This document shows positions 7,107 to 64,000 of a stretch of DNA of 64,000 nucleotides, in pieces. Every line of letters starts with the position of its first letter. Within the stretch, counting starts at the first letter, position 1. The position numbers and the translations under genes are program-made. Source of the stretch: Gracilimonas sp. (GTDB taxonomy: Bacteria; Bacteroidota; Rhodothermia; Balneolales; Balneolaceae); the NCBI GenBank assembly GCA_022450045.1, contig JAKURD010000013.1:25578-89577 (forward strand), in the 5' to 3' direction. Below the pieces are notes generated by a model, which saw nothing but the letters and a program-made list of their open reading frames with translations, did not search any database and was not told the origin of the DNA.

Positions 7107-7229
7107 ATGCAGTATTGATTTTTATAGAGTTAGCTACTGATGGTCTTATTTATAAAAAAGTACAAAAAATCTGTAAGGAGTGCGCGTTTCATCGCTCTAA
7201 CTATATGGCTAACAAAAGAGAAATAACTA

Positions 7230-10300: not shown

Positions 10301-12636
10301 GGACCTTCAATGACAATACCGGAAATCGCCGGGTTATATCGCATACAAATGTTGAATTGGTAACGGGTTCGTACGTTATTTTGGCGCCCGACAGTACGGT
10401 CATTAGTCTGTTCCCCGACCGGCGGATCATTGTAATGGGAACGAGGTTTCCATCCCTGAATAACGGCTCGGATGATATCGTGATCCGAAATGAACATGGC
10501 TCGCGTATCGACTCCCTCACCTATTTTTCTGAATGGGGCGGAAATGAGATTTCTTTGGAAAGACGCGCTCCTTCTGCACCATCTTTTTACCGGGAAAATT
10601 GGGGGGATTCGCCTTCAAATGAACTGGCAACTCCCGGGGCTGCCAATCAAATTCAACCCGATAACAGTCCGCCGGAGCTTAGCAATGCTTTCATAGCCGC
10701 CTCCGACTCTATTCGAATAACTTTTAATGAGCGCGTTGATTCTGCGTCAGCAAAAAATTCATCCAGCTATTCGATGGCCCCTGTGGTATCGATTGCTGAG
10801 ATCGCTGAATTTTCCGGGAATGCATTAACTGTTGTTTTAGGAACGTCATTAACTGATGGAGAAATGCACACCCTGACCATAGAAAATCAGGAAGATATCT
10901 TTGGTAATATTCGGGCTTCGCTTTCCACAGAACTTGAGTACACAGAATTCTATCCTGCTGAATTTGGAGATGTGATCGTAAATGAAATTCTCTACCGAAG
11001 GGAAAGTGCTGACTCAGAAGAATTTGTTGAGTTGTACAATAAAACGGAGAAAAACTTCAATCTTAGCAACTGGACCTTATCCGATGCTGCGGGATCAACT
11101 ACTATCCCGGAAGGCACTGAGATCAGGAGCGGTGAATACCTGGTACTTACCGGTCTGAAGGCCTTTGCCAATGAGATTCAGTACGGAGTTTACCTTTCCG
11201 GATTTCCTTCCCTGAATGATGATGAAGATGCGGTTGTGATTCGAAATGAAGATGGGATCATGATCGATAGTTTATTTTACAGCAACACATGGGGAGGCAA
11301 TGAACCGGGGGTTTCTCTGGAGCGCAAAGATCCTGAATCAGCTTCTAACGATGCATCGAACTGGGCGAGCAATGAAGGAAACGGGACCAGTGCCGGAGAC
11401 CAAAGCACTACTTTTGAGCCCGATGCAACTCCCCCTCAGATCTTATTCTCCAGACTACAGTTTGACGGGACCATTTTTGTGGCCTTCACGGAATTTGTGA
11501 ACATCAACAATGCCTCAGCTTTTGTGAATGAGCAACCTGCTTCCATTAACAACTATAGCGAGACGGACGGAAATATTGTGATCCTGGAAAACCCTGTTTC
11601 AGGATCAGTTTCCTCCGCAGCAAAAGCCAAAGAAAAGGCAAGCGAACCGCTTAACCTGACCTTTACCAACATCACCGATGTTCGTGGAAATGCCAGTCAG
11701 GAACTGGCTGTTGAAATTTCGCAGCCCATCAGCCCTGGTACGGTGGTGATCAATGAGATCTTATACAACCCTTTGGCCAATTCGGATGACAATCTTCCCG
11801 ACCAAACAGAGTATATTGAACTTTTTAACCCATCAGATTATGCCGTTTCTCTGGAGGGATTCTTTCTTCACGATGAGCCTGATGAAGATGGAGAAGTTCA
11901 GTCTTTGTTTCCGGTTTCTTCACAATATAAATGGATTCCGGCAGGAGCATACGTCGTAGTTTATGCCGAGGATGGGGCCACAAATTTCAGTGAAAGTCAG
12001 CTTGCCGAATATTTTGAACTGGAGAATGAAAGCGATCAGTTCAAGGCCCGAATTGACCGCACAAGCCTGAGCCTCTCTAATTCTGATGACGCTATTTACC
12101 TGGCCGACAGTGCCGGGACTACCATTGATTCCGTATTCTATGATGAAAGCTGGCAAAATCCCAATCTCTTTGATACAGATGGGGTTGCGCTTGAACGCAT
12201 AGACCCGGAAGGGCCCAGCAATGATCCGTCAAACTGGAGCTCAAGTACGCGTGTAAACGGGGGGACGCCCGGAGAACAAAATTCTATTTTCCAGGAATCC
12301 GGATCAGTGTTAGAAAATACGGGGATCACCTTTACACCGAATCCTTTTTCTCCTGATGACGATGGCTTTGAAGACAACCTGTTTATTAACTACAAACTGG
12401 ATGAATCGGATTATCTGCTGCGGGTACGCATTTTTGACCGTTACGGAAGGGAAGTCCGTGAACTGGCTGATGGGGTACAGGCCGGTTTCGAAGGCTCACT
12501 GATCTGGAACGGGCGTACTGATGATAATCGAAACAATCGTGTGGGCATTTATATCGTGCTTTTTGAGGCTTACAATAGTGCCAATGGCAAGAATGTAACC
12601 TTTAAAGAGACGGTAGTTTTGGCAAGGAAATTTTAA
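7390..12636 (+). CDS. Giant secreted lamin-tail-domain surface protein
   Basis: A 1748-residue exported protein. A signal peptide (MKNLLLFILIVLPAFAAAQ) is followed by a LamG/concanavalin-like domain (about 20-215). Then five repeats alternate a cadherin/SbsA-type Ig-like strand region with a lamin-tail domain. The lamin-tail domains begin near residues 317, 674, 938, 1194 and 1450, each with a GD(I/V)(I/V)INE(F/I) start, an (E/D)xxELxN phrase and a GTPG or TPG end. The C-terminus (about 1646-1748) has FTPNPFSPDDDGFEDN and WNGRTDDN, as in FlgD-like or CHU_C-type sorting domains, pointing to export by the type IX system. The first two repeats are nearly identical at DNA level over the domain start, indicating a recent 1.07-kb duplication. 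Likely a cell-surface adhesin or structural protein; lamin-tail domains also accompany secreted nucleases, but no nuclease domain is visible here. Confidence 0.88.
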   Translation: MKNLLLFILIVLPAFAAAQTVNFEDGFSDGDYTANPAWTGNTEDFEIFELNGNNVVRLSGPGASTSYLSTPSANTVGYWEFFVRIDGAAPSGSNKTEIFLMSDIQDLTGSVNGYAVRVGETGEDIFRVVRYDSGSESSTIVSDTTVVQSSSSYRVKVARDSSGNWAIEVGEGYAGQLKTSGNTGTDNTYTTTSYFGFKVDYTSSRIDDFYFDFKIDIPPLKIASISPVSDTEVDITFSREIDFGTTDVSDFTLDPGSINPQSTGQQSAKVARLTFSNPFSGGEYELTINDIGDAANETTLADTSISFVIFDDYQPGDIIINEFMKDPPSGTAEYVELKNISDRYLNLRDWKIGDNNTFETITGSDFAILPDSFAVVSANTLALSNFYGNANYVQASLPALNNAGAEQVRIRDKSDITQDSLEYNSNWGGVDVAIERRDPTVSSTFIENWADSPADNFGTPGFTNQIAEDIKAPEISKLLIQNSQTIILVASERLENTSAETVGNYVLSQNPESGTTPPAIPTIAAATQIAADSVELSLDSSLEEYDGSWILTADNLTDIFGNASDEQAEFTFSNPFTISEVTMPSDSEILILFKEKVNFSSVAAEDFTVNEVVLGGSSTITQPGADQILIDLPSALSSGPNLIAVSNIQSVTGWNIPQNTQFEFFVFNDYQPGDIIINEFMKDPPTGTAEYVELKNISGRYLNLRDWEIGDNSSITSINGADFVILPDSFAVISADTVTLNLFYGEANYIQASLPALNNAGDQIRLFDDSGVLADSLEYNSDWGGEDVAIERRDANVSSTFRENWGDSPADNFGTPGFTNQIQSDTTPPEITSLSVLNDSTFQVIFSERIQPGPAGDKANYSLSKPDGLPSAPPSLESAEFLAPDTVILSYPNALPRQEQGSEYGLTIEGQSDIFGNIAPTLEDSFFLIDITQADPGDVVINEFMYDPGTEFSEFIELHNPTDRNFDLQGWTFNDNTGNRRVISHTNVELVTGSYVILAPDSTVISLFPDRRIIVMGTRFPSLNNGSDDIVIRNEHGSRIDSLTYFSEWGGNEISLERRAPSAPSFYRENWGDSPSNELATPGAANQIQPDNSPPELSNAFIAASDSIRITFNERVDSASAKNSSSYSMAPVVSIAEIAEFSGNALTVVLGTSLTDGEMHTLTIENQEDIFGNIRASLSTELEYTEFYPAEFGDVIVNEILYRRESADSEEFVELYNKTEKNFNLSNWTLSDAAGSTTIPEGTEIRSGEYLVLTGLKAFANEIQYGVYLSGFPSLNDDEDAVVIRNEDGIMIDSLFYSNTWGGNEPGVSLERKDPESASNDASNWASNEGNGTSAGDQSTTFEPDATPPQILFSRLQFDGTIFVAFTEFVNINNASAFVNEQPASINNYSETDGNIVILENPVSGSVSSAAKAKEKASEPLNLTFTNITDVRGNASQELAVEISQPISPGTVVINEILYNPLANSDDNLPDQTEYIELFNPSDYAVSLEGFFLHDEPDEDGEVQSLFPVSSQYKWIPAGAYVVVYAEDGATNFSESQLAEYFELENESDQFKARIDRTSLSLSNSDDAIYLADSAGTTIDSVFYDESWQNPNLFDTDGVALERIDPEGPSNDPSNWSSSTRVNGGTPGEQNSIFQESGSVLENTGITFTPNPFSPDDDGFEDNLFINYKLDESDYLLRVRIFDRYGREVRELADGVQAGFEGSLIWNGRTDDNRNNRVGIYIVLFEAYNSANGKNVTFKETVVLARKF

Positions 12637-12698
12637 ATGTTGAATTTTGAATGTTAAATGGATCGAGCCATCTAACATTCAAAATTTATAATTCAACA
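12637..12698. terminator. Low-complexity palindrome between convergent genes
   Basis: TGTTGAATTTTGAATGTTA (and ATGG) on the left is complementary, with small mismatches, to CCATCTAACATTCAAAATTT...ATTCAACA on the right. The palindrome reaches into the 3' end of the TonB receptor gene, encoding its last residues NVEL and the stop. It probably acts as a terminator for both genes. Confidence 0.6.
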
Positions 12699-14761
12699 TT
12701 GAGTTTAACTCCTCCGAACCAGTTTCTTGGCGCTGCGGGTTGATAGTATCGGCCGCCAAAGGCATTCAGGTCATTCCCGAGGCTGTATTTTTCATCCAGC
12801 AGGTTATCAATTCCGGCAAAAATGTCAGCCGATACCCCTTCTTTGATTTGATGTTTGATCCCTGCTTTTAACTGAACCAAATGATAAGCATCGGAATAGA
12901 CCGTGTTGGCATCATTCAGCGGAATCTCATCCGTGAAGTTGTAGGATAATGAGCTGTAAAACCCTGCCTTTGTTTTAGTATTCAACGTAGAAACCAGGAT
13001 ATGAGGCGCTACTCCCGTCAGTTTATTTCCTGAGAAATCTTCCCCCTCCTTTTGGTAATCCTTGAACTCGAAATCATGATAGGTGTATGAAACGCCCCAA
13101 TCTAATTCCTGTAAAAATGCACTGCTGTTTCGAATTACGGCCCAGTTTAATGCGGCTTCGAGTCCATATTGATCCGTGCTTCCGGTGTTTTCAAAAATGA
13201 CGGTGGAATTTCTATCGGAGGGCTGCTGCACAATGGTCTCATCCAGCTTAAAAAAGAAAGTGGTGATATCATACGTAATGCGGGGCCCGATCAGTGTTCC
13301 CCGCGCTCCAACTTCATAATTCACTCCCTGCTCTGCTTCCAGATCCAGGGCAATACTCCCTTCATTGGTCCTAAACTCTTCGATGGTGGGTGGCGAAAAT
13401 CCATAGCTCACGCTCCCATGCAATGATAAGGCCGGCGAGAATTTCTTCAGAAGCCCTACCCGAGGTATGATCTCAGGATCAAAGGTTTTCTCAGCCAAAC
13501 CGGGTACATCACCTTGTAAATTTGTAACCAGGCGGTTCAGGCTATATTCCAGACGGTTGTAACTCAACCCTGCTGTCACATAAAATTCGTTGGGGAGATC
13601 GATCTCGGTATTCAAAAATATCAGAGAGGAACGGATCTTGATCTCATCATCAAAGTTAAGAGCCCCCACCTCGCTGCTGTCGTTCTCAAAATTTCGTGCT
13701 GCATAATTTGCAGACTGAAGCTCACCTCCCACAGTAAATCGTGTTCTAACTTCCCCTATATCCGTATCAAAATAAAACCGCGTTCTGCCTCCTCCCGATT
13801 TCCGGCTGTCCTTTTTGTAATCCAGGTTGAAAGGATTCTCGAATGCACTGAAGGTTCCATACAATGTGGTCAGGTTAGAAATGTTCTCCGATATCTGAGC
13901 GTCATGGCTGATCCCCGCCAAAAAAGCCTGTTGGTCGATGCTCGCATTTGCTTCCACACTGCCAAGCGCAAATGGATTTCCCTGCCGGGCCTGTGTTGGA
14001 TCCTGAGTAAACTGCTCTTCCGTCAGCGGGCCCGGAATCCCGTAATTCAGATCGGAGTATAGGAAACTTGTTTTGATGATCTGACTGTCATTCAGCTGAA
14101 ATCGCCCGGAAAGCTCGGCGGTCTCGCGGTTGAAAAAGGACTGCTCCCGGTATCCATCCGACTGCTGATTTGCATAGTTGAACCTGAAATTACCATCCTC
14201 GAACTGAGATTGTGCAAAAGCGGTATATCGAAGTAACCCGTAAGAACCAAACATGTGACCTGCACCAGCTTCATTTTCACTCGATTGCCGGCTTTCCAAC
14301 AACAAAGCTCCGCCATTTCCCGCTCCGTAAATACTACCTGCAGGCCCCTTGATAACCTCTACTTCCTGCATATTGATCACATCCAGCAGATTCAACGGCG
14401 TACTTCCTGAAGGTTCCGTAAATGGGATGTCGTTCCAGTAGATCTTCACATTCCTAACCCCAAAAGGAGAGCGAAGTGAACTTCCGCGAATGGCCACCCG
14501 ATAACTTCCGGGAGCACGTTGCTCAATTCGAACTCCCGGCACGGTATTCAGACCATACAACAAAGAGCCTTCATCGAAGCCGGTAATACGCTCAGGATCA
14601 ATATTGGCAATGGCTCCCGGCGATTCCATCACGCTGCGGTTGCCTTCGTAACCAACCACCACAACTTCTCCCAGATCACCTTTGAGGGTATCGGGTTCCT
14701 GTGCCAAAAGAAAAAATTGAGGTATAAAGACGATTAAAAAGAGTGCTGATATTTTGTTCAT
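12686..14761 (-). CDS. TonB-dependent outer-membrane receptor
   Basis: A 691-residue protein with a signal peptide (MNKISALFLIVFIPQFFLLA). A plug domain (about 30-150) carries PGVRIEQRAPGSYRVAIRGS and VEVIKGPAGSIYGAGNGG, the standard plug signatures. A beta-barrel rich in alternating aromatic strands ends in WFGGVKLNVEL. It should import a siderophore, haem or another large ligand across the outer membrane with TonB-ExbBD energy; the ligand cannot be told. It lacks the N-terminal carboxypeptidase-like extension of SusC proteins and has no SusD partner nearby, so a metal-complex role is more likely than glycan uptake. I prefer the ATG at 14761, which starts the signal peptide directly, over one five codons upstream. 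Confidence 0.88.
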   Translation of the reverse strand: MNKISALFLIVFIPQFFLLAQEPDTLKGDLGEVVVVGYEGNRSVMESPGAIANIDPERITGFDEGSLLYGLNTVPGVRIEQRAPGSYRVAIRGSSLRSPFGVRNVKIYWNDIPFTEPSGSTPLNLLDVINMQEVEVIKGPAGSIYGAGNGGALLLESRQSSENEAGAGHMFGSYGLLRYTAFAQSQFEDGNFRFNYANQQSDGYREQSFFNRETAELSGRFQLNDSQIIKTSFLYSDLNYGIPGPLTEEQFTQDPTQARQGNPFALGSVEANASIDQQAFLAGISHDAQISENISNLTTLYGTFSAFENPFNLDYKKDSRKSGGGRTRFYFDTDIGEVRTRFTVGGELQSANYAARNFENDSSEVGALNFDDEIKIRSSLIFLNTEIDLPNEFYVTAGLSYNRLEYSLNRLVTNLQGDVPGLAEKTFDPEIIPRVGLLKKFSPALSLHGSVSYGFSPPTIEEFRTNEGSIALDLEAEQGVNYEVGARGTLIGPRITYDITTFFFKLDETIVQQPSDRNSTVIFENTGSTDQYGLEAALNWAVIRNSSAFLQELDWGVSYTYHDFEFKDYQKEGEDFSGNKLTGVAPHILVSTLNTKTKAGFYSSLSYNFTDEIPLNDANTVYSDAYHLVQLKAGIKHQIKEGVSADIFAGIDNLLDEKYSLGNDLNAFGGRYYQPAAPRNWFGGVKLNVEL

Positions 14762-17805: not shown

Positions 17806-17862
17806 TGGCGAGGTTTTAGGTGTTAGAAATATTTGAATCTAAAACCTAACACCTTACAAAAG
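17806..17862. terminator. Word-like imperfect palindrome
   Basis: GAGGTTTTAGGTGTTAG pairs imperfectly with CTAAAACCTAACACCTT across a short loop between the convergent genes ending at 17798 and 17854, and probably terminates both transcripts. The right arm abuts the phoH stop. Confidence 0.5.
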
Positions 17863-19185
17863 TTTTGAAGCTAAATTCGCCAGGTCTGAGCGCTCTCCTT
17901 TCTCGAGGTTGATATGCGCATACAGATCATGATTATGCATTCGGTCCACTAAATAACTGAGTCCGTTGCTCTGCGCATCCAGATACGGCGTATCGATCTG
18001 GAAAATATCTCCGGTGAACACGATCTTGGTATTCTCACCTGCACGAGTGATGATGGTCTTCACTTCATGAGGGGTTAGGTTTTGGGCCTCATCAATAATA
18101 AAAATCACGTTAGAGAGGCTGCGCCCGCGAATGTACGCCAGCGGGACGATCCGGAGCTTATCCGTTTGCAGCATCTCATCAATTTTCTTAAAGGGCTTGC
18201 TGGTTTCCTTATACTGATTTTTGATGAAACTCAGGTTATCCCACAACGGCTGCATGTATGGGTCGATTTTCTGGTTGGCATCGCCTGGTAAAAATCCGAT
18301 ATCCTTATTGCTTAACGGTACAATAGGCCGTGCCAGATATACTTGTTTGAAATCACTACGCTGCTCCAGGGCACTTGCCAAAGCCAGTAAGGTTTTTCCG
18401 GTTCCCGCCGCCCCTGTTATGGAGGTACACAAAATGTTGGGATTTTGAAGCGCATGCAGCGCAAAGGTCTGCTCGGCATTTTTGGGTTGAATGCCATATG
18501 CATGCATCTTTTCCACCACCTCCACCATCTTGCTCTTGGGATTAAGCCATCCAAGTGCCGAGGAACCGTGACTTTTCATAATGTAATAATGATTGCAGGT
18601 TGGCTTTTCCTCGCCCAGCTCTTTCGGATCAATTTCACCCTCTTCATAAAACTTACTTATGAGTGACGGGTCATCGACATCAAGCTCAGTCTTTCCCCGA
18701 TATAACTGTTCAATATCTTTGATCTGTATCGTTTCATAATCTTCCGCCTCCAGATTCAACGCCCTGGCCTTCAGCCGCAGATTGATATCCTTTGAAACCA
18801 GGATCACCCGCTGATTGGGGTTTTCTTCCTTGAGGTGAAGCGCTGCATTTATGATGCGATGGTCATTTTTGTCGGAGCCGTACACCTGCGTGGCATCCTG
18901 AGAGTTGGCTCCCTGAGTTATCACCCGAAGCTTACCATGTGTACGCCCATTCATCGGGATCCAGTTCTGCAGCATATTGTCGTCTGAAATCCCGTCCAGG
19001 TACCGGATAAATTCCCGCGCATGCAGATTAATTACGTTGTTTCCTTTCTTAAAGGTATCCAGCTCTTCTAGAACGGTGATGGGAATGGCTACATCATTTT
19101 TTTCAAAGTTTCGAACGGCTTCATAATCATAGAGCAGAACCGAGGTGTCGAGTACGAAGATCTTCTTCTCTTTCTTCTTGGGCAT
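17854..19185 (-). CDS. PhoH family protein with PIN domain
   Basis: 443 residues. An N-terminal PIN domain (about 8-140; FVLDTSVLLYD with the first acidic residue, later TVLEELD and SDKNDHRI) is fused to a PhoH ATPase domain (about 240-440) with Walker A GAAGTGKTLLAL and Walker B IFIIDEAQN. PIN-PhoH (PhoH2-type) proteins are described as RNases with RNA helicase activity. The first ATG is kept, since the PIN core begins at residue 9. It is convergent with the YkoF-like gene. Confidence 0.9.
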   Translation of the reverse strand: MPKKKEKKIFVLDTSVLLYDYEAVRNFEKNDVAIPITVLEELDTFKKGNNVINLHAREFIRYLDGISDDNMLQNWIPMNGRTHGKLRVITQGANSQDATQVYGSDKNDHRIINAALHLKEENPNQRVILVSKDINLRLKARALNLEAEDYETIQIKDIEQLYRGKTELDVDDPSLISKFYEEGEIDPKELGEEKPTCNHYYIMKSHGSSALGWLNPKSKMVEVVEKMHAYGIQPKNAEQTFALHALQNPNILCTSITGAAGTGKTLLALASALEQRSDFKQVYLARPIVPLSNKDIGFLPGDANQKIDPYMQPLWDNLSFIKNQYKETSKPFKKIDEMLQTDKLRIVPLAYIRGRSLSNVIFIIDEAQNLTPHEVKTIITRAGENTKIVFTGDIFQIDTPYLDAQSNGLSYLVDRMHNHDLYAHINLEKGERSDLANLASKLL

Positions 19186-19325: not shown

Positions 19326-19350
19326 GAAAGTTGAAAGTTGATAGGGTGAT
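19326..19350 (+). repeat. Left inverted repeat bracketing the S23 gene
   Basis: A 25-bp sequence ending TTGAAAGTTGATAGGGTGAT. It is the inverted partner of 19837-19861 (23 of 25 match). The same sequence forms the empty palindrome at 42214-42286. Confidence 0.8.
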
Positions 19351-19428
19351 GAAAGTTTTTAAAAAAATTTTGTAAGGAATGCTATCGGGAAGGCTCTAAC
19401 TAAAAAATCAGAATAAGTTTGCTCAATA

Positions 19429-19836
19429 ATGACATTTAGGGAATGGGAAAGAAAAATACCGATTGAAATTAAGGAAGATGTAGCATGGAAAATGGAAGCA
19501 TACAGGTTGAGTCTGTTTCTATCTGACGCATGCTGGGAAGACACGAATATCATTCTTTTAGAAAAAAGATTTTCACTTGCCGACCAACTTTATCGTTCAG
19601 TGGGTTCTATAAGTGCAAATATTATTGAAGGATATTCACGAAAATCCAAGAAAGAAAAGGCGCGATTTTATGAAATATCTCTTGGTTCCGCCCGAGAAGC
19701 AAAAGATTGGTATTTCAAATCCAGACATTTATTATCAGAAAATAAATCTACATCCAGGATCAAAATGCTAACTTCCATTATAAAATTACTTCAAAAAATG
19801 ATCTCTGATCAAAGATGGAAAAGTAGAAATACATAA
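19429..19836 (+). CDS. Four-helix-bundle (S23/IVP-type) protein
   Basis: 135 residues of the four-helix-bundle family (TIGR02436), best known from genes inside 23S rRNA intervening sequences and related to the Avd protein of diversity-generating retroelements. Typical features are AYRLSLFLSDACW, the helix-turn FSLADQLYRSVGSISANIIE, GYSRKSKKEKARFYEISLGS and AREAKDWY. The gene is rightward and its TAA is followed with no gap by the right inverted repeat; the left repeat lies in its leader. It converges on the SpoU methyltransferase gene, whose last codons are encoded by the right repeat. The fill of AT-rich DNA (AAAAAAATTTTG) in the leader is unlike its neighbours. Function unknown; I infer a small inserted unit. 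Confidence 0.85.
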   Translation: MTFREWERKIPIEIKEDVAWKMEAYRLSLFLSDACWEDTNIILLEKRFSLADQLYRSVGSISANIIEGYSRKSKKEKARFYEISLGSAREAKDWYFKSRHLLSENKSTSRIKMLTSIIKLLQKMISDQRWKSRNT

Positions 19837-19861
19837 ATCACCCTGTCAACTTTCAACTCTC
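19837..19861 (-). repeat. Right inverted repeat bracketing the S23 gene
   Basis: The plus strand reads ATCACCCTGTCAACTTTCAA followed by CTCTC. It begins at the base after the S23 stop codon and includes the stop and last five codons (LRVES) of the SpoU methyltransferase gene on the other strand. Confidence 0.8.
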
Positions 19862-20619
19862 AATTTCCACAAAGCTATCGAAACCGCCACCGCCGCATTC
19901 AGGCTTTCCACGGTCTCTTGTCCGGGAGCCGATTCGATCTTCACTTTTTTTCTTTCAGAATTCAGGAGTTTTTTGCCAATGCCATTCCCTTCATTCCCCA
20001 CAACCAATATCGTTTTTTCTGCGGGTTGAACCGATCCCAAAGATTCCGCCTCATCTCCGCCATCTAACAACATCACTTGCCAGCCTGATCTTTCAAACTC
20101 ACTGAAAACCTCCTCAAGATCTCCGGCTAAAACAGAAGTGCTTCCGGTAGCTCCTGCTGTACTTCTTACCACTTTGGGGTGATAGACATCCACGCTGCCC
20201 TTTCCGGCAATCAAAGCCTTGGCTCCAAACCAAGCCGCTGTCCTTAGAATAGTTCCCATATTCCCTGGGTCCTGGATGGCATCGGTCGCTACGATGATTC
20301 CCCTTTCTCCGGCCAATTTTTCAGGCTGAATTTCTTCCGGCATCTTGCAAACCGCCAATATCCCCTGCGGGCTCTCCGTATCCGCCACTTCAGTAAGAAT
20401 TTCTTCCTCTAACATACAAAGCTCAACCCCCTTAAACCTTGCCTCTTGCACCTTAAACCTTGCCTCTAAAAAAACCGTCTCCACTTCAATCAACTCATTT
20501 TTGACCACCTGCTCAACGGCACGCTCCCCTTCTACCACAAACCGCTGCTCTTTCTCGCGATATTTTTTACGGGCTAGTTTTCGTAATAGTTTGATCTCGT
20601 TGTTTGATGCTTTTCTCAT
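19846..20619 (-). CDS. SpoU/TrmH-family RNA 2'-O-methyltransferase
   Basis: 257 residues. An N-terminal substrate-binding domain (about 1-95; LLRKLARKKYREKEQRFVVE) is followed by a SPOUT knot domain with the three SpoU motifs: DPGNMGTILRTA at about 118, NEGNGIG at about 208, and SLNAAVAVSIALW near the C-terminus. These enzymes methylate ribose in tRNA or rRNA, and the order fits an RlmB-like rRNA enzyme. The 3' end is odd: the final LRVES and stop are encoded by a dispersed inverted repeat. The N-terminal domain contains EARFK twice (residues 52-56 and 59-63), encoded by a 17-bp direct repeat that looks like an in-frame insertion of intergenic repeat sequence. Confidence 0.88.
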   Translation of the reverse strand: MRKASNNEIKLLRKLARKKYREKEQRFVVEGERAVEQVVKNELIEVETVFLEARFKVQEARFKGVELCMLEEEILTEVADTESPQGILAVCKMPEEIQPEKLAGERGIIVATDAIQDPGNMGTILRTAAWFGAKALIAGKGSVDVYHPKVVRSTAGATGSTSVLAGDLEEVFSEFERSGWQVMLLDGGDEAESLGSVQPAEKTILVVGNEGNGIGKKLLNSERKKVKIESAPGQETVESLNAAVAVSIALWKLRVES

Positions 20620-20624
20620 GGAGG

Positions 20625-20750
20625 AAGAATACAGAACTCAGAATTCAGAATACAGGAATAAAATACTTCAATGTTCAATATTCCTTGTTCGATATTCGAT
20701 GTTCTGCTTCTGTATTCTGACTGCTTACTTTCCTATCTTCATTCAAAATT
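20625..20750. repeat. Imperfect word-like palindrome
   Basis: GAATACAGAACTCAGAATTC on the left is loosely complementary to the right side ending CTTCTGTATTCTGAC, with ATTCAA/TTCGAT words between. It sits in the divergent gap between the SpoU gene and the ALDH gene, so it must overlap both promoters or leaders. Confidence 0.45.
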
Positions 20751-39155: not shown

Positions 39156-39262
39156 TGGGAGCAAAGGGATTCGAACCCTTACGACTGTTAAGTCAAAGCT
39201 TTGTTCAGAAATCTCAAAATCTCTGCGCAAAAGCTTCGTGTCTGCCATTCCACCATGCTCCC
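39156..39262 (-). tRNA. tRNA-Leu-like gene with enlarged anticodon arm
   Basis: 107 nt. The acceptor GGGAGCA pairs fully with TGCTCCC. The Leu-type D-arm is GTGGAATGGCAGACAC, the long variable arm GACT-TAAC-AGTC, and the T-arm AAGGG-TTCGAAT-CCCTT. The anticodon region is abnormal: AAGCTTT and AAAGCTT pair and enclose a further hairpin CAGAGA...TTTCTG, so no 7-base anticodon loop forms. Without about 20-24 of these bases, the length would be the usual 83-87 nt for tRNA-Leu. The insert contains a tandem GAGATTTT/GAGATTTC. It may be a pseudo-tRNA, an intron-like insertion or a specialised tRNA-like RNA. No anticodon can be assigned. Confidence 0.6.
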
Positions 39263-42213: not shown

Positions 42214-42286
42214 TTGAAAGTTGAAAGTTGATAGGGTGATATTTGTACGAACAAATTCTATCACCCTATCAACTTTCAACTTTCAA
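42214..42286. repeat. Near-perfect palindrome after aroA (empty form)
   Basis: TTGAAAGTTGAAAGTTGATA and the following GGGTGAT pair perfectly with the inverted copy at 42260-42286. Inside, ATTTGT pairs with ACAAAT around a small ACGA loop. The total stem exceeds 30 bp with one bulge. The right arm encodes the last codons (LKVES) and stop of aroA. It probably terminates aroA. The same arms at 19326-19350 and 19837-19861 enclose the S23 gene. Confidence 0.8.
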
Positions 42287-54007: not shown

Positions 54008-54200
54008 AACGTCAGTTCGAGATAAGAACTAAGTTAAAAGGATAAAAATGGGTGCTTGTGGTCATTCCCGTGGAGACGGGAATCTAATTATTGCTATTCA
54101 TTCAGTATTCGATACCTGACCAGCCATAGGATTTCGGGCATTCGCTGTGAAATGACCATTTAAGGTGTTCAACAGATGGTCTTAATATCGAATTCACGTT
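54008..54200 (+). mobile_element. Family A MITE-like element, copy 4
   Basis: A 193-bp copy with ends AACGTCAGTTCGAGATA and ATATCGAATTCACGTT, very similar to the copies near katG more than 50 kb away. It is flanked by the direct repeat AGGTTT on both sides. Removing the element rejoins GAGGTGTTAGGTTT with AGGTGC, restoring an arm that is imperfectly complementary to CACACCTAATACCTG at 54230-54245. The element therefore appears to have inserted into a palindromic spacer between convergent genes. Confidence 0.87.
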
Positions 54201-63568: not shown

Positions 63569-63580
63569 GGAAAAAAGGAA

Positions 63581-63688
63581 GAAGGCGACGACCTACTCTA
63601 CCGCAATTGCAGTACCATCGGCGCTGCAGGGCTTAACGGCCGTGTTCGGGATGGGAACGGGTGGGGCCCCTGCGCTGGAGTCACCTTC
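63581..63688 (-). rRNA. rrf: 5S ribosomal RNA
   Basis: About 108 nt on the minus strand. The ends GAAGGTGAC and GTCGCCTTC pair as helix I, and CCCATCCCGAACACGG and the loop with AGTAG are the conserved 5S segments. Exact ends may differ by a few bases. Confidence 0.93.
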
Positions 63689-63781
63689 AAAAAAGGGTCA
63701 ATATATCTGTTCTTTGACATGATGAGGCAATAGCATTCGTTGGGGTCTGAGCAAGATGTGTTATTAAACTGCTTAGTCAGC

Positions 63782-63807
63782 GGCTTGCACGGGGACCCGT
63801 GCAAGCC
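63782..63807. other. Perfect hairpin in the 23S-5S spacer
   Basis: GGCTTGCACGGG and CCCGTGCAAGCC form a perfect 12-bp stem with a GA turn, just beyond the 3' end of 23S. It is probably a processing signal for precursor rRNA. Confidence 0.6.
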
Positions 63808-63815
63808 ATATAAAT

Positions 63816-64000
63816 AAAGCCTGTGGCCTGATTAGTATAGCTCGGCTAAACACGTTACCGTGCGTACACCTGCTACCTATCTACCTGGTCGTCTCCCAGG
63901 AGGCTCTTAGGGAATACTTATCTTGGAGCGTGCTTCGCGCTTAGATGCATTCAGCGGCTTATCACTTCCGCACATAGCTACCCTGCGATGCATGCGACCA
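63816..64000 (-). rRNA. rrl: 23S ribosomal RNA, 3' end (partial)
   Basis: Minus-strand sequence with the highly conserved 3' segment of 23S (plus-strand GATGCATTCAGCGGCTTATC and CTGATTAGTATAGCTCGG). It runs off the right edge; the 3' end near 63816 is estimated. Confidence 0.92.

Follow-up and report, generated by a model that had tools for sequence, protein, structure and literature searches.

Open reading frames (ORFs) for S23 proteins are carried by 23S rRNA intervening sequences (IVSs) in Coxiella and Leptospira, and IVSs are found in Salmonella too. Passages of PMC4990558 state that the function of S23, or 'four helix bundle', proteins is not known and call the function and origin of rRNA IVSs unclear; they also quote an older proposal in which the IVS is mobile and depends on its ORF to move, and argue that the S23 protein of the Coxiella IVS is probably not produced in vivo and is decaying. 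A second related system is that of the RAYT-linked REPINs, which, as described in PMC3116915, combine hairpin-forming inverted repeats, many gene-less copies and a linked protein gene. The element that we describe here, from a Gracilimonas sp. genome (G000), shares these three features with REPINs; unlike them, it has its gene inside the palindrome, this gene is PF05635 and not a Y1 transposase, its product is a small four-helix bundle without a known nuclease site, and the arms are heptad arrays. As in a 23S rRNA IVS, an S23 ORF sits in the loop of a stem, with inverted arms around the ORF. Unlike IVSs, elements of this type are intergenic, have family-specific arms, and occur as gene-less closed palindromes, and this single genome holds 15 PF05635 matches, 14 of them above the cut-off. 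The arrangement takes the IVS beyond rRNA, to an element that lies between genes, occurs across phyla, has heptads as its signature and, in the genus, bears a competence-type motif.

The window (the whole stretch of 64,000 nt that was analysed) contains one such unit. The left arm, a heptad-type quasi-repeat (GAAAGTTGAAAGTTGATAGGGTGAT, positions 19326–19350, plus strand, with fainter pairing up to 19360), differs from the reverse complement of the right arm (19837–19861, plus strand) at two of 25 positions, and in a repeat search of the window the pairing reaches 35 nt, at 83%. Between the arms lie a 31-nt promoter-like motif, TTGTAAGG-N16-CTCTAAC (19370–19400, plus strand), and a 135-aa S23 gene (PF05635, four-helix bundle; 19429–19836, plus strand), whose stop codon is followed directly by the first base of the right arm. 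A preliminary description of this DNA had reported this geometry (25-bp inverted arms matching at 23 of 25 positions, a single enclosed gene, and a right arm that begins right after the stop), and all of it was borne out. The same is true of its observation that these arms also form an empty hairpin at 42214–42286, a closed palindrome that follows the end of a gene judged by eye to be aroA-like, and in which 28-bp arms are fully complementary around a 17-nt loop; as single-stranded DNA (ssDNA) this hairpin has a folding energy of -33.1 kcal/mol, against a mean of -6.3 for shuffled sequences, and none of 200 shuffles was as good. The element is flanked by a PIN-PhoH gene (17854–19185, minus strand) and by a SpoU rRNA methylase gene (19846–20619, minus strand) that is convergent to S23, has its stop codon inside the right arm, and serves below as the anchor of an orthologous-site comparison. 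Two further palindromes are a closed one at 12629–12700, between two convergent gene ends, whose AATGTTGAATTTTGAATG-type arms resemble those of an S23 locus in another species (L119 in G003), and a hairpin at 20635–20730 with outer arms of the CAGAATTCAG type and, by eye, inner arms of the GTTCAATATTC type. Hairpin-forming inverted repeats are dispersed in the genome, as REPINs are. (Note that Rfam places rRNA in the window only at 63580–64000, so the S23 element lies outside any 23S rRNA gene.)

The preliminary description had allowed that the arm might be frequent enough for flanking pairs to occur by chance, which is not the case. The arm core, with up to two mismatches, has 27 copies in the 3.5 Mb genome versus 5 for the reversed control, and is therefore too rare to flank a gene by accident. 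Moreover, only 0.30% of 5000 random window spans equal the arm score of the window pair, even though some of these spans possibly contain the window arms themselves. Arm-core counts and random-span controls together rule out a chance origin of the pairing.

The protein encoded by the window gene scores 67 bits against PF05635 (cut-off 33.8) and 74 bits against TIGR02436 (cut-off 24). Its structure model is a helical bundle with a mean pLDDT of 97.7, and the modelled fold matches the solved S23 proteins 2RLD and 2GSC with TM scores, by target, of 0.85–0.90. The solved S23 relatives have five chains in every entry, and passages of PMC4990558 describe the S23 protein of Xanthomonas as a homopentamer. 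Counted from the second ATG, the net charge of the window protein is +9 (the family mean is +3, and 56 of 71 members are positive). A recognised catalytic motif is absent from S23, and some S23 genes are interrupted by internal stops. The fold is similar also to that of Avd, the accessory protein of diversity-generating retroelements (DGRs), which is itself a pentamer: by target length, the TM scores of the model are 0.75 with 4DWL and 0.79 with 8UBE, at Foldseek E values above 1. This likeness raises the idea of a retroelement in which S23 acts as Avd does and the hairpin is copied out of RNA by a reverse transcriptase; RVT_1 matches are absent, however, from eight of ten genomes of the genus, including that of the window, which makes reverse transcription unlikely in the genus, and we regard this account as very improbable.

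The arrangement seen in the window is common around S23 genes. Inverted arms with a score of at least 26 flank 65 of the 83 S23 loci listed in the ten genus genomes, compared to 1.2% of 5000 random window spans. (Arms were called with one fixed scoring of both 250-nt flanks. The 83 loci are the S23 matches listed, not necessarily all; L015, which is under the Pfam cut-off, was excluded, L010, at a contig edge, was kept as a miss, L161 duplicates L071 and was not used, and homologues of the window S23 in G003–G005 came to light separately, via motif matches.) In an order-wide set that includes the window's own genome and the genus (L010 and L070 excluded), 31 of 42 loci score at least 24, against 3.1% of controls. 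Across phyla, a score of at least 26 is reached by 63 of 76 S23 loci, but by only 3.0% of 1500 control spans, which were taken from these loci's own flanks; note that this set consists of the best 80 of at least 579 confirmed stretches, in named genomes, and so leans towards the query family and Bacteroidota, and that L216, L250, L258 and L259 were excluded since their flanks were too short. By record title, the cross-phylum bacteria include members of Bacteroidota, Acidobacteria, Planctomycetes, Nitrospirae, Proteobacteria, Chloroflexi, Elusimicrobia and Gracilibacteria, and further loci are in Methanophagales archaea. The proposal in the preliminary description that S23 genes repeatedly sit between inverted arms agrees with both the genus and the cross-phylum counts. 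The presence of the arm-S23-arm arrangement in many phyla points to a mobile element that is widespread and has no known transposase; in the literature that we searched (mostly open-access journals, preprints excluded) we found no account of heptad arms around intergenic S23 genes.

We also scored 414 ORFs in a 464-kb sample of the window's own genome, comprising the window and further sequence picked partly for arm copies and S23 genes. Five ORFs score at least 35, four of which are S23 genes, and another S23 gene scores 29; one Y1-like ORF (by eye) scores 27, with a GC-rich repeat of a different kind. Of 24 hairpins tested in this sample, only eight matched S23 arms better than every shuffled or random sequence did, four of them being of the arm type of the window element. 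A general tie of closed palindromes to S23 arms was therefore not upheld.

The arms have a characteristic internal structure, in that they are arrays of about five 7-nt quasi-repeats. Identity within arms is 0.55–0.64 at a lag of 7 and 0.52–0.64 at a lag of 14, compared to 0.27–0.28 in controls. Of the 65 left arms from the genus, 61 have a best period of 7; among the 63 from the cross-phylum set, 59 have one of 7 or 8. Read inward, arms contain about 10–11% C and 25–27% G, whereas controls contain 21% C and 24% G. The median array length at genus loci is 34 nt, or 4.9 heptads, a value measured from the aligned arm and hence dependent on the arm call; the match between five heptads and five S23 subunits is suggestive only. 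Heptanucleotide arrays between genes are also known from cyanobacteria as STRR, short tandemly repeated heptanucleotides, which we set beside the S23 arms by description only and for which we know of no link to S23. Tandem 7-nt repeats are placed just upstream of the S23 ORF of the Coxiella 23S rRNA IVS in passages of PMC4990558, and such arrays are thus not limited to intergenic copies. On this point the connection to IVSs that the preliminary description had drawn turns out to be closer than it had noted. Concerted evolution of both arms of a locus was considered and is unsupported, as the score of left against right arms within loci (34.3) is below the scores between species (45.0 and 47.6). 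By eye, GC-rich repeats of other kinds are inserted inside or beside heptad palindromes at four loci (L188 in G003, L185 in G005, L192 in G008 and L196 in G006).

We then asked how arm sequence relates to S23 family, with loci assigned to sites by flank similarity (three of the 83 loci, fragments shorter than 75 aa, were excluded) and pairs restricted to loci with good arms. Arms were shared in 24 of 29 different-site pairs whose S23 similarity is at least 0.6, versus 9 of 1735 less similar pairs, and none of 2000 permutations was as extreme. (Note that the shared-arm pairs are non-independent, a few families contributing them.) FAM1 occupies three sites, with two occurrences in G004; FAM4 occupies two sites, with two occurrences in G007; and FAM7 occupies two sites. 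The FAM3 loci at sites 0 and 7 are both beside thiolase genes (by eye), so that this pair may have arisen by duplication of a segment. FAM5 and FAM11 occupy two sites each, with arm scores (23 and 20) that are under the threshold. Homologues of the window S23 located elsewhere in G003, G004 and G005 carry, by eye, GTGATA-type arms, which the window arms resemble in their inner half only. That arms follow the S23 family wherever it is located argues that they belong to the element and that the unit is arm-S23-arm. The preliminary description had instead proposed that S23 may travel as a loop insertion, the gene inserting alone into existing ordinary intergenic palindromes of any sequence. This proposal is largely refuted by the association of arms with family, and we now consider it improbable; the recurrent position of S23 between arms stands, but the idea that the target supplies the palindrome does not, since the unit brings its own arms.

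Orthologous sites, at which states and arm types were read by eye, provide a further comparison. At the SpoU site S23 is present only in G000. The SpoU orthologue was found in eight other genus genomes, and in six of them the site has a gene-less closed palindrome, as the preliminary description had anticipated for SpoU loci that lack S23. These palindromes are of the GTGATA type in G004, G005, G007 and G008 and of the CAGTGAACAGT type in G001 and G006. G002 has other sequence at this site, and in G021, from another genus, a palindrome is absent. Closed palindromes in six other species and a gene in G000 only are what loop insertion would produce; however, at a second site (site 9) the empty sites of G002, G004 and G009 are clean and without a palindrome. 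Because homologues of the window S23 elsewhere bear GTGATA arms, the SpoU palindromes of the four relatives with this type look like gene-less family members. In G003 (L077), compared by eye with the window from 42286 onward, SpoU is joined to the end of an aroA-like gene through GTGATA-type arms, which are separated by other repeats that span about 330 bp; in the window these two gene ends bear one and the same arm type, which suggests a rearrangement between palindromes.

Other sites are found in a range of states. Site 9, clean and empty in the three genomes just named, is filled in G001, G006 and G008, internally deleted in G005 with both arms and both gene ends kept, one-armed in G000 (two loci) and G007, and preceded by a different upstream neighbour in G003. 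(At L286 and L290 in G000 and L285 in G007, the deletion seemingly fused the first S23 codons to the start of the next gene, which is thereby given an altered N terminus.) Site 13, read without G002 and L190, is filled in G001 and G008, internally deleted in G005 with an inserted further repeat, and without the element in G000 and G007; G006 has its own small hairpin there, G003 has other repeats next to a right arm of the GTGATA type, and G004 has a different neighbour. Site 20 is filled in G004 and holds a closed palindrome of the same arm type in G007, a left arm plus other sequence in G001, G006 and G008, a different palindrome type in G002 and G005, and none in G000 (the site was not found in G003 and G009). 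At site 10, read without L296–L299, S23 is present in G006 and G008 and as a fragment in G002, G005 has a decayed remnant, G007 has a palindrome of yet another type, and G001 has a different closed palindrome with a right flank 99% identical to that of G008. Taken together, these states show gain or exchange, plus decay, and the G005 deletions at sites 9 and 13 indicate that gene-less palindromes can arise by gene loss. The same unit occurs at different sites and is missing at some orthologous ones, as with insertion sequences and MITEs, and, as in these, copies with and without the gene bear the same terminal inverted repeats; unlike them, the unit has no transposase gene. No target-site duplication was seen by eye when empty and filled versions of site 9 were compared. 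From these comparisons we infer that the element moves.

The positions of arms relative to neighbouring genes bear on a non-mobile account, in which host palindromes such as terminators or insulators stand at gene ends, S23 binds its cognate palindromes as a regulator or in repair, and the two co-evolve. At the 65 genus loci with good arms, where the neighbour turns its 3' end to the element, no more than 30 nt separate it from the arm at 21 of 21 right arms and 29 of 38 left arms (medians of 2 nt); where it turns its 5' end, this holds at 30 of 43 right arms and 11 of 27 left arms. As 5' ends too are often near arms, a preference for stop codons is not cleanly separable from small gaps. As a host function would have it, several closed palindromes fit closely into the gaps where convergent genes end, and several S23 loci are at one site in many species of the genus; S23 also shares with recA and ssb the motif described below. 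Nonetheless, presence and absence at orthologous sites, internal deletions, one-armed remnants, S23 genes with internal stops, and the occurrence of one family at more than one site per genome (FAM1 in G004, FAM4 in G007) all argue against it, and we think this account unlikely.

The motif ahead of the window S23 has the consensus TTGTAAGG-N16-CTCTWAC. With at most one mismatch it has 16 matches in the window's own genome, versus 4 for the control: six precede S23 genes, seven precede genes for ComM/YifB, RecF, SSB, RecA, ComEC, RecQ and an integron integrase, and three precede other genes (Pfam was run on the 10 non-S23 matches; other genes were named by eye). Each of the ten genomes of the genus has 16–33 matches, and the controls 0–4. 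In G001–G005, 14 of 136 matches precede listed S23 genes (14 of 38 such genes, where chance predicts 0.05), and the motif precedes 16 of 37 listed Y1_Tnp matches (chance 0.07), counting up to 350 nt upstream of S23 and up to 550 nt upstream of Y1, with some matches below the Pfam cut-off. In G004, where 20 of 32 motif matches were examined (10 with Pfam, the rest named by eye), it is also found before RadC, two integron integrases, a Y1_Tnp gene and three nuclease-domain genes. Among genus S23 loci with good arms, 31 of 65 have the motif within two mismatches and 34 of 65 lack it (at least five mismatches); for random window pieces the count is 8 of 2000, the window itself containing two copies. 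Outside the genus, 4 of 18 loci of the order have it. In other bacteria comEC, comM, ssb and radC are members of the competence regulon, and integron and Y1 enzymes act on single-stranded hairpins. Given these roles, the 31-nt motif is probably the promoter of a competence or ssDNA-handling regulon; control of a DNA-repair regulon is also possible. The integron-integrase genes with the motif (TIGR02249; L338 on C19 of G000, and L343 and L345 in G004) hint that integron activity may be tied to DNA uptake in the genus. The second window copy, at 7171–7201 and with one mismatch, is upstream of a gene for a Lamin Tail Domain protein with a signal-like start, and a G004 motif match (L350) precedes a protein that looks similar by eye.

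The motif at Y1_Tnp genes bears on a further account, in which the palindromes are moved in trans by IS200-like (Y1/RAYT) transposases of the genus, with S23 as a mere passenger. Y1_Tnp matches are present in all ten genus genomes, 16 of the 37 listed in G001–G005 have the motif, and the RAYT-linked REPINs described in PMC3116915 are a known precedent. Genomes G014, G015 and G022, however, have 5, 8 and 6 S23 matches and zero Y1_Tnp matches, and four of the five highest-scoring ORFs of the 464-kb sample are S23 genes. The S23-bearing genomes without a Y1 match weaken the case for Y1 transposases as the sole cause; we find the passenger account unlikely, and Y1 transposases may help the element to move.

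At the level of sequence, then, the comparisons establish an arm-gene-arm unit with family-specific arms, heptad structure, presence and absence at sites, decay products and a common motif. Our preferred reading, to which we assign a probability of roughly 0.55, is that this unit is a selfish hairpin element, with S23 between family-specific heptad arrays, that is active on ssDNA during competence. The motif would drive S23 as part of a competence-type regulon, and the S23 ring, a pentamer in solved relatives, would recognise the heptad array on the single strand that is there, in folded form, while DNA is taken up, perhaps with one subunit per heptad. S23 would thus be a targeting subunit rather than an enzyme, and host recombination or replication enzymes would copy the hairpin, with or without the S23 gene, beside gene ends. 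Internal deletion leaves one-armed or gene-less remnants; closed palindromes such as that at 42214–42286 would be gene-less copies or remnants, and the 23S rRNA IVSs would be the subset that landed in rRNA. We advance more tentatively, as a possibility with less than even odds, the broader idea that S23 is central to a class of mobile hairpins that lack a transposase, extend to bacteria at large and to some archaea, and include the IVS as one branch. In this view about five heptads would be read by a pentamer and, in the genus, the element would be expressed in competence and move through ssDNA, as integron integrases and Y1 act there too.

Should S23 prove to be the gene of a heptad-arm element, the protein would gain a role in arm recognition, rRNA insertions and intergenic palindromes would be united, and one class of intergenic repeats that look simple, and that many phyla have, would be explained. 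The motif common to comEC, comM, ssb, recA, integron integrases and Y1 further raises the question of whether mobile hairpins are woken by DNA uptake.

Two other features of the window are of note. At 39156–39262, Rfam reports a 107-nt tRNA match (44 bits) that is absent from the ARAGORN output. In addition, MITE-like units of about 190 bp, with 16-bp inverted ends (AACGTGAGTTCGAGAT / ATATCGAATTCACGTT), are present at 206–397, 1481–1673 and 54008–54200, with partial copies near 796–831 and 991–1006; the pattern that defines these units has 10 matches, where 1.7 are expected.
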